A stretch of 64,000 bases of DNA, taken from positions 1 through 64,000 of the forward strand of contig JAIXUE010000009.1 of assembly GCA_027483605.1 (NCBI GenBank). The letters are read 5' to 3'. The position numbers and the translations under genes are program-made. Origin of the DNA: Cryomorphaceae bacterium. Its GTDB lineage: Bacteria; Bacteroidota; Bacteroidia; Flavobacteriales_D; Crocinitomicaceae. The notes under the pieces are model-generated. The model ran no database searches and was not told the DNA's origin. It was given only the letters and a program-made list of their open reading frames with translations. Shown piece after piece: positions 41,070-46,933 of this stretch (positions are counted from its first letter, which is position 1; each line of letters begins with the position of its first letter).

Positions 41070-42398
41070 ATGCTCGCTCTCAACTACAAGACAATTTTAG
41101 GGGTTGCCCTACCCATGATGGTCACTGGATTTATTCAGTCTATTGTGCTGCTCACCGATGCGTCGTTAATCGCAAGGTATTCAACAGAAGCCTTTGATGC
41201 CGTTGGCAATGCTGGCTTGCTGTATGTCACGCTCTTTATGTGTTTAGCTGGAATGGCCGACGGCGCTCAAATCATTATTGCACGCCGAATTGGTCAAGAT
41301 AAACCCGATCTTATTGGTCAAGTTTTTGGCAGCACCGTTTGGGTTTTGTGCACCTTAGCGCTCTGCTTATTTGGCGTCCTCTATTTTGTCATGCCCAACT
41401 TGGTTCAAGCCTACTCTGAACAAGCAGAAATTGCCAAACTGCAGGGGATCTATATCGAGCAACGCAGCTTCTCGTTGTTTTTTGCCATGATTACCCTTTC
41501 TATTCAAGCTTTTTTCTTGGCAGAAGGTAAATCTTGGGTGGTGCTCATCACGTCAGTGCTCACTGCAAGTTCAAATGCACTTTTGGCCTACGCACTTATC
41601 TTTGGGGATTTTGGCTTACCCGAAATGGGCATTAGGGGTGCAGCCCTTGCTTCTACTATTGCCGATGGAATCGGTATGACGAGCATGCTTTGCTTTTTGT
41701 TTTTTTCCAAAGAACAAAAAAAATACAAACTCCTCGCCTACTTCAAAGTCGATTTCTCCTCTATCAAAGAACTGCTTAAAGTGGGAAGCCCCCTGATGCT
41801 TCAGGGTTTTTCAGCCTTAGCAACCTGGACGCTTTTCTTTACCTGGCTCGAACAAAAAGGCACCTTTGACCTCACGGTTTCTCAGAACATTCGCTCCATT
41901 TATTTCTTGGCATTTGTCCCGATTTGGGGCTTTGCAGGTACGACCAAAACTTATATCTCACAGTATCTAGGAGCCAAAAAAATAGCACAAATCCCTGTTA
42001 TTCAACGAAAAATCCAATTACTCACGGTGGGCTTTATGTTGTGTACTTTTCATGGTGCGCTGCTGTATCCAGAAACAATGATCAGAATGGTGAACCCCGC
42101 AGAGGCGTATGTAGCCAAAAGTGCTGAAATCCTGAAACTCATTGCAATATCCATTCTGCTCTTTGGCTTTATTTCAGTTTATTTTCAGACCATTCATGGC
42201 AGCGGTAATACGCTACACTCCATGATGATCGAATTTTTTACGGTGGGGGTGTACAGCATTTTTTGCTATTTGTTCATCAAGGTTTGGGCACTCGATGTCT
42301 ATTGGATTTGGACCGTCGAATACATTTATTTTGGTATATTAGGCTTGGTATCTATCACCTATCTGAGAAAGTATAACTGGCAAAACAAACAAGTATGA
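41070..42398 (+). CDS. MATE-family efflux transporter
   Basis: A 442-residue inner-membrane protein with about twelve hydrophobic segments in two similar halves, as in the MATE (NorM/DinF-like) multidrug and toxic-compound exporters that use Na+ or H+ gradients. Seen near the N-terminus is LPMMVTGFIQSIVLLTDASL, and the second half opens with LKVGSPLMLQGFSALATWTL. The substrate is unknown. It starts immediately after the RlmI-like stop and its own stop overlaps the fmt start (ATGA), so the three genes form one operon. Confidence 0.9.
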   Translation: MLALNYKTILGVALPMMVTGFIQSIVLLTDASLIARYSTEAFDAVGNAGLLYVTLFMCLAGMADGAQIIIARRIGQDKPDLIGQVFGSTVWVLCTLALCLFGVLYFVMPNLVQAYSEQAEIAKLQGIYIEQRSFSLFFAMITLSIQAFFLAEGKSWVVLITSVLTASSNALLAYALIFGDFGLPEMGIRGAALASTIADGIGMTSMLCFLFFSKEQKKYKLLAYFKVDFSSIKELLKVGSPLMLQGFSALATWTLFFTWLEQKGTFDLTVSQNIRSIYFLAFVPIWGFAGTTKTYISQYLGAKKIAQIPVIQRKIQLLTVGFMLCTFHGALLYPETMIRMVNPAEAYVAKSAEILKLIAISILLFGFISVYFQTIHGSGNTLHSMMIEFFTVGVYSIFCYLFIKVWALDVYWIWTVEYIYFGILGLVSITYLRKYNWQNKQV

Positions 42399-43348
42399 GT
42401 GCAGCACTGCGCATTGTTTTTATGGGGACTCCCGCTTTTGCAGTTCGTATTTTAGATGAACTACATCGAAGCCATCACCAAGTTGTGGGCGTAGTAACCG
42501 TGGCCGACAAACCTGCTGGACGCGGCCAACTCATGCATCAGAGCGCTGTGAAAACGTATGCGCTCGCGCACCAATTACCTTTACTGCAACCCGACAAACT
42601 CCGCGACGACACCTTTCTTGCAGCGTTACAACAGTGGCAGGCCGATGTGTTTGTAGTAGTTGCTTTTAGAATGTTGCCCGATGTCGTTTGGAAGTTGCCT
42701 AGACTCGGTACCTTCAACCTCCATGCCTCGTTATTACCAGCATACCGCGGCGCGGCACCCATCAATTGGGCGCTTATTAACGGGGATAGCGAAAGTGGTG
42801 TCACCACCTTTATGATCAATGAGGAAATTGACGCGGGTAGTATACTCAAACAGGCGAAAATTGAACTCACACCAAACATGACTGCTGGTGAATTACACGA
42901 TTCACTCCAAGAAATTGGTGCTTCATTGACGCTTCAAACTTGTGACGCCTTGGCATCTGGCAAAATTGAGCCTCAAGCTCAAAATGCACTTACTGGAAAA
43001 CGTGCTTTAGCGCCGAAACTTTACAAGGAAAATACAAAAATTGATTGGTCGCAGACTGCTCATGAAATACACAACCTTGTAAGGGGCTTAGACCCATATC
43101 CGGCCGCCTGGTGCCAACTTTGGTCTGAGCAAAAACAAGGTTATGTTCAATTCAAGATTTTCAGTACCGAAATCAGTGCTCTTGAAGCAGAACGAACAGA
43201 TGGCCCACAAGCCGTGAAAGCGGGTATTCTCTTTCCTTGCGGACAACAAACCACTTTGCTGGTCAAAGAAATTCAGATGGAAGGAAAGAAACGCATGGAT
43301 GCGCGGTCTTTTGTGGCAGGAAACAATCTATTACTCTTTCGCTACTGA
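42395..43348 (+). CDS. fmt: Methionyl-tRNA formyltransferase
   Basis: A 317-residue enzyme that formylates initiator Met-tRNA with 10-formyl-tetrahydrofolate. FMGTPAFAVRILDEL at the N-terminus, the catalytic stretch FNLHASLLPAYRGAAPINWA near residue 110, GVTTFMINEEIDAG, and a C-terminal tRNA-binding domain (KIDWSQTAHEIHNLVRGLDP) are diagnostic. It is coupled to the MATE gene by a 4-base overlap and its last 7 bases overlap the convergent TonB_C-barrel gene. No def is adjacent. Confidence 0.95.
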   Translation: MSAALRIVFMGTPAFAVRILDELHRSHHQVVGVVTVADKPAGRGQLMHQSAVKTYALAHQLPLLQPDKLRDDTFLAALQQWQADVFVVVAFRMLPDVVWKLPRLGTFNLHASLLPAYRGAAPINWALINGDSESGVTTFMINEEIDAGSILKQAKIELTPNMTAGELHDSLQEIGASLTLQTCDALASGKIEPQAQNALTGKRALAPKLYKENTKIDWSQTAHEIHNLVRGLDPYPAAWCQLWSEQKQGYVQFKIFSTEISALEAERTDGPQAVKAGILFPCGQQTTLLVKEIQMEGKKRMDARSFVAGNNLLLFRY

Positions 43349-44514
43349 GGAATGTTAAAAGAAATGCCAAAGCGCATTGGATAAACACCAGCGGTGGTCC
43401 CTTCTTTAAACATGTTAAGTAGTGCGTAATTGGCAAAAAGCCCAAAATGTCCGTAACCGATGCGCACTGTGGCATCAAGCATCCAGGTATTGAGGTTGAA
43501 TTTAGCTTTGGTGATGTTTTCAAAGTCGTTGCCATTTGCGTAGGTACCCGTAAAACGCTGATGACTATACAAACGCAAACCGCCGATTACCCCCGCGTCG
43601 AGGTAAAAAATCTTTTTGTACGGCTGATCGTTTCCTGCTGTAAATTCCAAAAGCAGTGGGATGGTCATGTAGGCTACATAAAGCGAATTGCGCTTGAATA
43701 CTTGGTCGTTATTGACGACGGCAAATACGGTATCAGGGTTGTGTTCGAGCACATAAGAAGAGGTAAGCTCTGTGGCGCCAAAATTAAAACCATAACCAGT
43801 TGTCAGGCCCAATACATCGCTGATTAAATTGAACTTGTATTGAAAAGTATTGAGGTTAAACAACAAACTTTTTGCCGAGTTATTTTCCCAATAAGGTGTT
43901 GTGGCAAAGGTGGTGGATGGATCAAGGAAACCATTCGTATTGAGCTGAACACCTAATTCAAAGCCCGCCCAGTGGCCTTTTTCTCTCGTTGAACCTTCTT
44001 CAAAGTCGAAATCGCCTTCTAAATCTAAATCGAGGTCAAATAGGATTTGAAGGCGGTATGAAGAGGAAATTGGCTTTCCGTTTTCATCAGAAGCGGGAAT
44101 CCAAAGTGGCATATTGCGCACGATGTCTAATGCCGCGCTATCAAGCAAGGCATTAAAACCAAGCTCCACTAGTGGATTGAGAACCTTTCCATCTGCCGCA
44201 ATTTCAAAGGCTACATATACGGACTCTCCAAAGGGAAAAATCTCATTTGTATCGGCAAAGATGAAGCGTTCAACCGCATCTGTCAAGTAGCGATCTAATG
44301 AATCTTGACCACCAGGAAACTGCGGCAATTGACGACTGACATCCTCTGGTAAGCCAGTCAATTCGATTACTTCCACGGGGGCTTCTAAAACTTCCACCTC
44401 CGTTACTATTTTGATACTTGTATCTATTTTTTCTACTAATTGCGGCTTTTCTAAAACTTGGGCGTTGATCGAAAAACACAATAAAATTGCAAAAGAGGCA
44501 GATATCTTTTTCAT
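43342..44514 (-). CDS. Exported protein joining a TonB C-terminal domain to an outer-membrane barrel
   Basis: A 390-residue protein with a signal peptide (KKISASFAILLCFSINAQ). Residues about 60-165 read as a TonB C-terminal domain: QFPGGQDSLDRYL, VYVAFEIAADGKVLNP, LLDSAALDIVRNMPLWIPA and GKPISSSYRLQILF. After an acidic linker (LDLDLEGDFDFEEG), residues about 185-390 look like an outer-membrane beta-barrel of the porin-like PF13568 type (GFELGVQLN, YKKIFYLDAGVIGG, MRFGISFNIPQ). TonB normally spans from the inner membrane, so this domain order is unusual. It lies 27 bases downstream of the TPP-controlled receptor but has its own exact promoter box. Confidence 0.8.
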   Translation of the reverse strand: MKKISASFAILLCFSINAQVLEKPQLVEKIDTSIKIVTEVEVLEAPVEVIELTGLPEDVSRQLPQFPGGQDSLDRYLTDAVERFIFADTNEIFPFGESVYVAFEIAADGKVLNPLVELGFNALLDSAALDIVRNMPLWIPASDENGKPISSSYRLQILFDLDLDLEGDFDFEEGSTREKGHWAGFELGVQLNTNGFLDPSTTFATTPYWENNSAKSLLFNLNTFQYKFNLISDVLGLTTGYGFNFGATELTSSYVLEHNPDTVFAVVNNDQVFKRNSLYVAYMTIPLLLEFTAGNDQPYKKIFYLDAGVIGGLRLYSHQRFTGTYANGNDFENITKAKFNLNTWMLDATVRIGYGHFGLFANYALLNMFKEGTTAGVYPMRFGISFNIPQ

Positions 44515-44541: not shown

Positions 44542-46794
44542 TTAAAACTGGATGTTCATTTTCAACAAGAAATGCCTACCGGCTTGCGGATAGTAGAAGT
44601 TTTCAGTGGTTGTTTGGCCACCATACTGATAGCTGAAAGTATAGCCGTTATTGGCGTAAAGTGCGTTCAGTAGGTTATTGACCATTAAGCCAATTTCCAT
44701 TTCTTTTGCGAAGTTTTGTTTGATTTTATAATTACAGATGAAATTGGTAAAAGTAAACGGATCTAAGCTACGAGCGACATTCGAGGTGTTGTCTAAATAT
44801 TGTCGCGAAACATATTTGCTCTGAAGTGCCAAAGAAAGAGAACGAGTAGGCTGGAATTGCAAACCTAAGGTGTGGATGAAATTAGGTGAAAAAGCCAAAT
44901 CTGTGGTGCCGTGTTCAATCTGTACTTGTGTATAGTATGGCGCCTCATCTAGGTAAACATCTACATATTCCACAAAATTCAAAATCTTGTTCTGACTCAG
45001 TGTAGTTGCGCCTTGAAGACGCCATTGTTCATTGAGTTGATAGGCAAAATCTAATTCTAAGCCTGCGCGATAGCTTTGATCTACGTTGGTCCGCGTGTAG
45101 CCACCTACATCGTTGATTTGCCCCGTTAAAACAAGCTGATCTTGGTAGTACATTAAATACAAGTTGGCTTGGGCAGTCCAACGTTTGTAAGCCATTCTAT
45201 ATGCGAGTTCTGCATCGTACATGCGCTCGGGCAGAGGTCTATTTTGAGGGGTGCTTTCTCTGAAATCACGGCGAACAGGCTCGCGATTAGCAATTCCAAT
45301 TGATCCAAATAGTTTATTTGCTCCAATCATTTTGGAAAACGCCATCTTCGGATTGAAAAAATGGAACTGGATATTTTGTGTGACGTCTGTTAAAACCCCA
45401 CTGACATCGTCCACGCCCAAGAATGAATATGCAATACCTCGGTATTGCAGGTCGAGTTGGAGGTCCCAGCCGTTTTTGGTATAATTTGACTTCAAATAAG
45501 TGCTCAACTCTGATTTTTCGGCATCGTTATCGTAATAACGATCGTAAATCTCGCTGTTGGATGCAAATTCTGCCCAGATAACTTCTCCGAAATGCAGGCC
45601 TGTATAGCGGTTAGCAGCGCCACCCAAAGTGAACTTGAAATTCGGCCTCCACTGATAATTGAGACCGTACACAACACCAATAAAATGATTGTCGAGCCAA
45701 CGTCTTCTGATCAAATCTGTACTCATAATTGAATCTGTTCCTAACACAACTGGTGAGAGACCGTAGTCAGAAAGATCATCTTGATTTCTGAATTCCTCGA
45801 AATACCCTCTACCATGAGTATAATGAGCTGCTAAATTGAGGTCGAGTTGAGGAGTAAAGCGATGGATGAAATGCAATTGGTAGTTATCTTGATTGTAGTT
45901 ATCGACTTGATTGGCATAGGTGTAATAGTTGTAAGTGCGACCAGAAGATAGTAAGTTTTGCGTCTCTGCCTCGCTTAGGCCGTTGCGTGCAGCGTAGTCG
46001 AGCATACCTTGTTCATCAGAACGGTAGCGGCTTTCAGGCGTGCCGTACCAGGCTTGATAGGTGCGCTCAGCCCCATTCAATACAACTGCTTTCCAGATAG
46101 ATTTTCTTGACAAATAGGTGGCAGTGAGCGCAAGTGAGCGCAAATCCGAGGTGGCGCGGTCAAGGTAGCCATCTGAACGAATTTCGGAAAGACGTGCATC
46201 TAAAGAAAAACGCTTGTTTAGCAAGCCAGTTGAGGCCTGTAAGGTGCCTCTTAGCGTTCCGAAGGATCCTGCCGAAAGATCGATACGCGCCGAAGGCTGC
46301 AGATTTAAGTCATTTGTTTTGATATTGACACTAGCGCCAAATGCTGCGGCACCATTGGTAGACGAGCCAACTCCACGCTGAATTTGAATGTTCTCTATTG
46401 AACCGACAAGATCGGGCATATTGACCCAATAGACATCATGAGACTCTGGATCATTGACTGGCACACCATTGATGGTAACGTTGATGCGACTCGCATCTAC
46501 GCCACGAATGCGCAACCCACTGTATCCAATACCTGCACCTGCGTCGCTGGTAGTAACCACCGACGGCGTGAACTCTAGGAGTGTAGGCATATCTTGACCG
46601 AAATTCTTCGCGTTTAGCGCCGATTTAGAAACGGTAGTATTGTTGGGTGCGTCTTTGGCGCGCAGACCTTTCACGACCACACCTTCGATGTTTTGAATAC
46701 CCCGAACGGTATCGATACTGCTTGTGTTACCGTTTTGGGCAGTGGTACTAAATGCCAAAAACAAAGTAGGAATAAAAAATAATCTTGTTTTCAT
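44542..46794 (-). CDS. TonB-dependent receptor, probable thiamine importer
   Basis: A 750-residue outer-membrane receptor: signal peptide (about residues 1-19), plug domain at about residues 35-150 (TPSVVTTSDAGAGIGYSGLR, RINVTINGVPVNDPESH, IQIQRGVGSSTNGAAAFG) and a 22-strand barrel ending in the terminal aromatic signature (HFLLKMNIQF). There is no carboxypeptidase-like N-terminal extension, so it is not of the SusC type. The TPP riboswitch directly upstream indicates that its product handles thiamine or a thiamine precursor; TPP-regulated receptors of this kind have been described in Bacteroidota by comparative genomics. No pnuT or thiamine kinase gene is adjacent. Confidence 0.9.
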   Translation of the reverse strand: MKTRLFFIPTLFLAFSTTAQNGNTSSIDTVRGIQNIEGVVVKGLRAKDAPNNTTVSKSALNAKNFGQDMPTLLEFTPSVVTTSDAGAGIGYSGLRIRGVDASRINVTINGVPVNDPESHDVYWVNMPDLVGSIENIQIQRGVGSSTNGAAAFGASVNIKTNDLNLQPSARIDLSAGSFGTLRGTLQASTGLLNKRFSLDARLSEIRSDGYLDRATSDLRSLALTATYLSRKSIWKAVVLNGAERTYQAWYGTPESRYRSDEQGMLDYAARNGLSEAETQNLLSSGRTYNYYTYANQVDNYNQDNYQLHFIHRFTPQLDLNLAAHYTHGRGYFEEFRNQDDLSDYGLSPVVLGTDSIMSTDLIRRRWLDNHFIGVVYGLNYQWRPNFKFTLGGAANRYTGLHFGEVIWAEFASNSEIYDRYYDNDAEKSELSTYLKSNYTKNGWDLQLDLQYRGIAYSFLGVDDVSGVLTDVTQNIQFHFFNPKMAFSKMIGANKLFGSIGIANREPVRRDFRESTPQNRPLPERMYDAELAYRMAYKRWTAQANLYLMYYQDQLVLTGQINDVGGYTRTNVDQSYRAGLELDFAYQLNEQWRLQGATTLSQNKILNFVEYVDVYLDEAPYYTQVQIEHGTTDLAFSPNFIHTLGLQFQPTRSLSLALQSKYVSRQYLDNTSNVARSLDPFTFTNFICNYKIKQNFAKEMEIGLMVNNLLNALYANNGYTFSYQYGGQTTTENFYYPQAGRHFLLKMNIQF

Positions 46795-46850
46795 TTTTTA
46801 AAAATTAAACAAGAATAAGGGGCTCTTCTTGACAGTTTTGTAAGTTAAGC

Positions 46851-46931
46851 GCGTCATCTTCCCTTCGATGGCATTATCCAAATCAGGTTCAATGGGTATG
46901 ATCTCAGCCTTTCGGCACCCCCTAGAGACGT
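46851..46931 (-). promoter_or_regulatory. TPP (THI-element) riboswitch
   Basis: Read on the minus strand the leader contains the conserved TPP aptamer segments in order: GGGGTGCC, GGCTGAGA, ACCC, GAACCTGAT and GGATAATGCC. A short P1 pairing joins CGTC (46930-46927) to GACG (46855-46852). The aptamer ends about 56 bases before the receptor ATG. No strong terminator hairpin follows, so control is probably at translation initiation. It senses thiamine pyrophosphate and would shut off receptor synthesis when the cofactor is abundant. Confidence 0.95.
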
Positions 46932-46933
46932 TG

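Follow-up and report, generated by a model that had tools for sequence, protein, structure and literature searches.

An exported protein joining a TonB C-terminal domain to a small outer-membrane barrel, encoded beside a TPP-controlled TonB-dependent receptor in one genus of Flavobacteriales

Organization of the locus

The window analysed here, the whole stretch of 64,000 nt, carries on its minus strand a TPP riboswitch, a TonB-dependent receptor (TBDR) and P0001, in that order, with the receptor and P0001 forming a two-gene unit. P0001 begins 27 bases past the TBDR stop codon, and the two genes are probably co-transcribed; at its other end P0001 overlaps by 7 bases the end of a convergent gene at 42395-43348 (plus strand), a putative fmt-like gene by its sequence. 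The features are listed below in the order of transcription.

46843-46932, minus strand: TPP riboswitch aptamer RF00059 (57.4 bits, gathering score 54.3)
44542-46794, minus strand: TBDR, 750 aa (Plug E 3.2e-12)
46666-46689, minus strand: candidate Ton box IEGVVVKG, receptor residues 36-43, from its position and its conservation among receptor N-termini
43342-44514, minus strand: P0001, TonB_C-barrel fusion, 390 aa, ORF coordinates confirmed exactly
44461-44514, minus strand: signal peptide, residues about 1-18, with an AQ cleavage site and without a lipobox (by eye; the pattern is conserved)
44416-44460, minus strand: conserved mature N-terminus QVLEKPQLVEKIDTS, residues 19-33, from identity among 14 window-clade sequences
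44026-44331, minus strand: TonB_C domain, residues 62-163, from profiles, model and fold matches
43975-44025, minus strand: acidic linker, residues 164-180, from the sequence (pLDDT < 50 for 163-180)
43345-43974, minus strand: eight-stranded outer-membrane barrel, residues 181-390, of OmpA-like fold and PF13568-type via relatives

A variable segment, residues 34-61, lies between the mature N-terminus and the TonB_C domain. The segment IEGVVVKG was spotted by eye shortly after the receptor's signal peptide and is presumably Ton-box-like. An earlier reading of the sequence alone had named a TPP-regulated receptor as the neighbour of P0001, and the RF00059 and Plug scores listed above, together with the conservation of the neighbourhood, bear this out. 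It had also described an exported protein without an inner-membrane anchor; by eye, the N-terminus of P0001 indeed contains only the signal peptide with its conserved AQ cleavage site, and no such anchor is visible. The 43 residues ahead of the domain (19-61) contain few prolines, and there is no long proline-rich region of the kind that spans the periplasm.

Identity of the two domains

P0001 is an exported protein joining a TonB C-terminal domain to a small outer-membrane barrel. The sequence-only reading had recognized a TonB_C-like region, an acidic linker and a barrel, and the profiles of relatives, the predicted model and the fold matches all agree with this division. The profile searches that it proposed match both halves in the relatives. 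P0001 itself scores 23.4 bits (E 8.3e-05) against Pfam TonB_C, 1.2 bits below the gathering score of 24.6, reaches 14.9 bits against NCBIfam TIGR01352 (TonB; cut-off 27.1), and has no match at E <= 1 to PF13568 (OMP_b-brl_2) in the Pfam search; nor does it appear among the matches when its own genome is searched with the Pfam TonB_C family. Among 18 fused homologues, 17 match TonB_C (best 3.5e-17) and 14 match OMP_b-brl_2 (best 5.2e-12) at E <= 1, while PF13568 is matched above cut-off by all six of the unfused homologues tested; these matches of the relatives settle the identity of both halves of P0001. A profile-profile comparison of the window-clade TonB_C with nine TonB CTDs gave 99.2%. 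The PDB sequence search with P0001 returned neither TonB nor barrel (best E 0.19).

The predicted model has a mean pLDDT of 60.7, with block means of 63-86 across residues 61-160, and consists of elements in the order helix-strand-strand-helix-strand followed by eight long barrel strands, the barrel loops being of low confidence. Foldseek matches for the first half are weak (TolA CTD, E 0.044; TonB CTDs, 0.066 and 0.12), and the model matches OmpA with E 6e-04. By VIA, residues 60-163 align with 6i97_D, the P. aeruginosa TonB seen on FoxA, with Z 9.1 over 89 residues at 2.4 A; the TonB_C region also matches 9dc4_T (TonB seen on TbpA), 5lw8, 1u07 and 1xx3 with Z 7.3-8.4, and residues 179-390 match OmpA-type eight-stranded barrels, the best being 1qjp (residues 179-389, Z 14.8, 134 residues, 2.5 A). 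The structure prediction that had been proposed for the full protein thus gives a first half that is like a TonB CTD and separate from the barrel, and the model and fold matches exclude that it is part of the barrel. The fold by itself reveals no function; the sequence profiles concur with it.

A chance or misread open reading frame is excluded as well, since the fusion, the linker and the gene order recur across many genomes. One scan of viral_contigs, made with a phage or mobile origin in view, yielded no relative. As a possible split-gene partner, a separate TonB_C gene was looked for beside the unfused barrels of the genus, and none was present in the flanks scanned. Outside the genus, one locus (L068) has a weak TonB_C match (E 8.6e-05) on the opposite strand, about 0.9 kb from the barrel.

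Distribution and origin of the fusion

A count of this domain order across Bacteroidota had been proposed, and a profile of 18 fused proteins finds matches spanning both domains in 51 of the 77 genomes of the genus; among the matches listed, none comes from elsewhere in the order or phylum. For 322 other genomes of the order, every listed match starts at profile position 118 at least, and so covers the barrel and no more than the last part of TonB_C. Among 395 genomes sampled from the phylum, the listed matches span both domains only in two genomes of the genus, and in none of the 393 others. About five candidates at most were scored per genome, and such a profile would miss TonB_C fused to a different barrel family. 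The domain arrangement is real and conserved, and in these searches it was seen in one genus of Flavobacteriales alone. No published TonB_C-barrel fusion was found in the literature searched, which does not prove its absence. The 11 named records comprise four Crocinitomicaceae, two Cryomorphaceae, two Flavobacteriales, and one each of Flavobacteriia, Chryseobacterium gleum and Sphingomonadales. Two loci titled Chryseobacterium gleum and Sphingomonadales (L032 and L039) look misassigned, their gene order and proteins fitting the group.

In a TonB_C tree of 81 rows (38 fused, 96 columns, long branches), the fused domains are scattered over several groups, which would suggest repeated capture; an AU test, in a set that left out nine long rows (three of them fused), does not reject a single clade of fused domains (p 0.128). 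In the best barrel tree (66 rows, of which 35 are fused) the fusion state changes four times, and 3-5 times in bootstraps; its well-supported branches force only one change. Neither repeated gain nor a set number of losses is claimed for the fusion.

Receptor linkage, riboswitch and thiamin context

Besides the window's own, 55 loci of the genus were examined, of which five are cut by contig ends and 50 could be assessed. In 45 of these 50 the gene immediately upstream encodes a TBDR (31 of 35 fused loci and 14 of 15 unfused ones). In the other five (four fused, one unfused) it does not, and three of these genomes (G003, G012, G029) have a related TBDR at another position. The locus counts are not independent, since they include close relatives; the barrels of L052 and L053, for instance, have end branches of 0 and 0.01 (L021 and L022 in the barrel tree). 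Of the 45 TBDR-linked barrels, 14 lack TonB_C, which makes the domain an add-on to a receptor-barrel pair that exists without it and speaks against an essential role.

A TPP aptamer reaches the gathering score in 27 of the 56 sources scanned (by scan: 13/14, 2/11, 8/12, 3/13, 1/6), each time in a locus with a receptor. Four further sources have one below the gathering score, and in most of those that remain a receptor is missing or a contig end intervenes. Under stricter filters, by which some weak matches were lost, TPP matches at E <= 0.001 occur in 64 genomes of the genus out of 81; a single match is present in 61 of them.

A second TPP aptamer of the window genome (L103, G000 contig C14) lies ahead of thiM-, thiE-, thiD- and tenA-like genes, and no match to ThiC was found in this genome by a search whose control was positive in 13 of 14 genomes. 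As far as can be read from gene content, this set and the absent ThiC match are a thiamin salvage genotype: the pyrimidine half should not be made, so import should be needed, and the window genome should import thiamin or its precursors. The riboswitch and the lack of a ThiC match make thiamin or one of its precursors the most likely substrate of the TBDR. OMthi, a TPP-controlled receptor of B. thetaiotaomicron, influences growth when thiamin is scarce once biosynthesis has been removed, according to passages of PMC5613172.

Other TonB_C proteins in the genus

Three TonB_C proteins of the window genome lie above the cut-off: one anchored TonB with a proline-rich region, which adjoins two ExbD genes, and two others, of which one has an exported start (open frame of 249 aa) and one an exported or lipoprotein-like start (142 aa). 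From 20 further stretches of the genus, picked from profile matches and not at random, 23 TonB_C frames were read by eye; 11 are anchored TonBs, 10 have exported or lipoprotein-like starts (one of them with two TonB_C domains), and two have another N-terminal part. Exported TonB_C proteins without a receptor neighbour occur in the stretches read. TonB_C with such starts is thus common in the genus, which weakens the premise of the sequence-only reading that a TonB domain without an anchor is odd; the unusual feature is the covalent link of TonB_C to a barrel. In the TonB_C tree the P0001-type domain sits on a long branch apart from the TonB CTDs of the genus.

Several of these proteins are worth recording individually. 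The frame at L185:994-1842 (G011) has a lipobox-like start and two tandem TonB_C domains and lies beside a second, short exported TonB_C gene; L179, L180 and L183 (G015, G035, G031) carry TonB_C proteins with lipoprotein-like signal peptides, by eye; and L087 and L088 (G038, G050) have TonB_C at the C-terminus of long frames, whose length within the retrieved stretches is 787 and 824 aa.

Selection and divergence in the window clade

Among the 14 window-clade sequences, dN/dS is 0.11 for TonB_C and 0.09 for the barrel, against 0.16 in the mature N-terminus, 0.33 in the linker and 0.54 in the variable segment; few of the pairs are unsaturated (23 of 91 for TonB_C). The value for TonB_C indicates that the domain is maintained, under purifying selection like that on the barrel. 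Mean identity in the same sequences is 82% for residues 19-33 against 28% for residues 34-61; the signal peptide and the segment that flank this mature N-terminus both vary, and its conservation is of the kind that a short binding motif would show.

Inside the window clade, identity is 0.64 for TonB_C and 0.61 for the barrel, while between this clade and L013, L046, L049, L051 and L052 it is lower for TonB_C (0.27) than for the barrel (0.41). Of the 12 fused rows of the alignment that lie outside the window clade, 8 have a YP motif and the other four LP (L045, L047, L048) or FP (L052); in the six window-clade rows YP is replaced and TonB_C carries a three-residue insertion. Given this drift and the scores below cut-off, Ton-box binding may have been lost. 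The receptors changed too: those of the window clade are about 70 residues shorter at the N-terminus, in all 13 fetched and in the window's own (L031-L044), and all 20 of the other receptors of the genus with an intact start (L045-L126) have the extra segment, the starts of L047 and L048 being judged from sequence. The receptors of L054 and L060 are truncated at contig ends. In the two longer receptors tested, CarboxypepD_reg families match the extra segment, for one of them only at or just under the cut-offs, and these families find no match in the one short receptor tested. A CarboxypepD_reg-like domain bears on the interaction with TonB in Bacteroides, as a section of PMC12204202, citing Pollet 2021, indicates. 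The change in TonB_C and the shortening of the receptor fall on nearby branches and so amount to a single coincidence, not a statistical association; in L045, L047 and L048, TonB_C is partly changed, yet the longer receptor is kept. A motif scan of 20 Plug loci for the Ton boxes of the genome's other receptors gave the TBDR beside P0001 and one spurious match, so no Ton-box consensus was set up.

Possible function of P0001

The reading preferred here, tentatively and at a little short of an even chance, is that P0001 is an outer-membrane accessory of a TPP-controlled TBDR for thiamin or a precursor, with TonB_C docking passively at the periplasmic face of the receptor. The eight-stranded barrel would fix P0001 in the outer membrane beside the receptor, and TonB_C would hang into the periplasm on its short acidic linker, as a passive docking module; strand 3 of the domain could take the receptor's Ton box or N-terminal segment, and the docked domain would keep the receptor waiting until energised TonB-ExbBD takes over. 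An eight-stranded barrel topology would put an attached domain on the periplasmic side, and this places TonB_C, in all probability, in the periplasm; the proposal of the sequence-only reading that the domain is held there at the outer membrane gains support from the barrel together with what is generally known of such barrels. P0001 and the receptor would be partners at the protein level. In the model, about 20 flexible residues lead from strand 3 of TonB_C (residues about 151-159) to the barrel, so that the domain should be able to reach the receptor. An excerpt of PMC11658791 describes, for FhuA-TonB, parallel pairing of the Ton box with the third strand of TonB. That the TonB_C of P0001 contacts or occupies the Ton box, and has an effect by doing so, is speculative and unlikely; the competition with true TonB, or relay to it, that the sequence-only reading had suggested is likewise speculative.

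An accessory role draws on the succession of TPP riboswitch, TBDR and barrel, on the receptor upstream of 31 of the 35 fused loci, on the constraint on TonB_C (dN/dS 0.11), on the expected need for thiamin import, on fold matches that include TonB bound to receptors, and on the single anchored TonB above cut-off in the genome; the 14 of 45 receptor-linked barrels that lack TonB_C, the drift of the window-clade domain from canonical TonB, the 5 of 50 loci without an upstream TBDR, and the TonB_C proteins exported elsewhere without a receptor neighbour, count against it. These same proteins lend weight to an alternative that we regard as somewhat unlikely, namely that TonB_C is a general periplasmic binding module, for protein or peptidoglycan, which makes no contact with the Ton box, P0001 being an outer-membrane tether or sensor that is co-regulated by chance. 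Exported or lipoprotein-like TonB_C is common in the genus (10 of the 23 frames, and two of the three proteins in the window genome), short TonB_C frames elsewhere in the phylum may point the same way, four fused genes have no receptor directly upstream, and the window-clade TonB_C has diverged strongly from the L013-L052 group in comparison with the barrel; the receptor that precedes the other 31 assessable fused genes speaks against this alternative.

It is quite unlikely that the barrel does the work, in substrate entry or in the stability or assembly of the receptor, and that TonB_C is a dispensable add-on. The barrel does follow a receptor both with TonB_C (31 loci) and without it (14 loci), and fusion state changes four times in the best barrel tree (66 rows; 3-5 times in bootstraps, with only one change forced by well-supported branches), but TonB_C is constrained like the barrel (dN/dS 0.11 against 0.09), and matches to both domains are found in most genomes of the genus (51/77). 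TonB CTDs are known from structural work on TonB to pair with each other, and P0001 has the TonB CTD fold, so that the tethered domain could pair with the CTD of a true TonB and recruit TonB-ExbBD, as a docking station or relay; nothing in the data points to a TonB partner, and the domain lies on a long branch away from the TonB CTDs of the genus, which leaves this very improbable.

To return to P0001 as an accessory of its receptor, a bolder form of the proposal is that it belongs to a class of outer-membrane-tethered pseudo-TonB proteins, each parked on the Ton box of its own receptor and gating the energisation of one vitamin receptor locally, and that in the window clade the domain may replace the missing CarboxypepD_reg-like extension; as a whole this is decidedly unlikely.

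Comparison with known systems

In the usual picture of force transfer, TonB sits in the inner membrane and extends across to the receptors. If the accessory role is correct, an outer-membrane-fixed TonB domain produced alongside a single receptor would regulate that transfer locally, and the two-gene operon would offer a testable handle on why this group has many TonB domains without an inner-membrane anchor. With the energy transducer TonB (PF03544), P0001 shares the C-terminal domain by sequence and fold; it differs in having no visible anchor and no proline-rich spanning region, in carrying the domain N-terminal to a barrel, and in that its gene is not beside ExbD. The likeness to the PF13568 small barrels of Bacteroidota is confined to the barrel half, and in the barrel homologues retrieved from beyond the genus different N-termini take the place of TonB_C.

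In its arrangement, a TPP riboswitch followed by a TBDR, the locus resembles that of OMthi (BT2390), the putative outer-membrane thiamin transporter of Bacteroides thetaiotaomicron, homology of the receptors not being implied; the partners named in the relevant passages of PMC5613172 are pnuT and tnr3, with no TonB_C-barrel among them. BtuB-BtuG and SusCD (PMC10404256, PMC7618045) likewise combine a receptor with a dedicated outer-membrane partner; there the partners are lipoproteins, whereas here the partner would be a barrel with a periplasmic domain.
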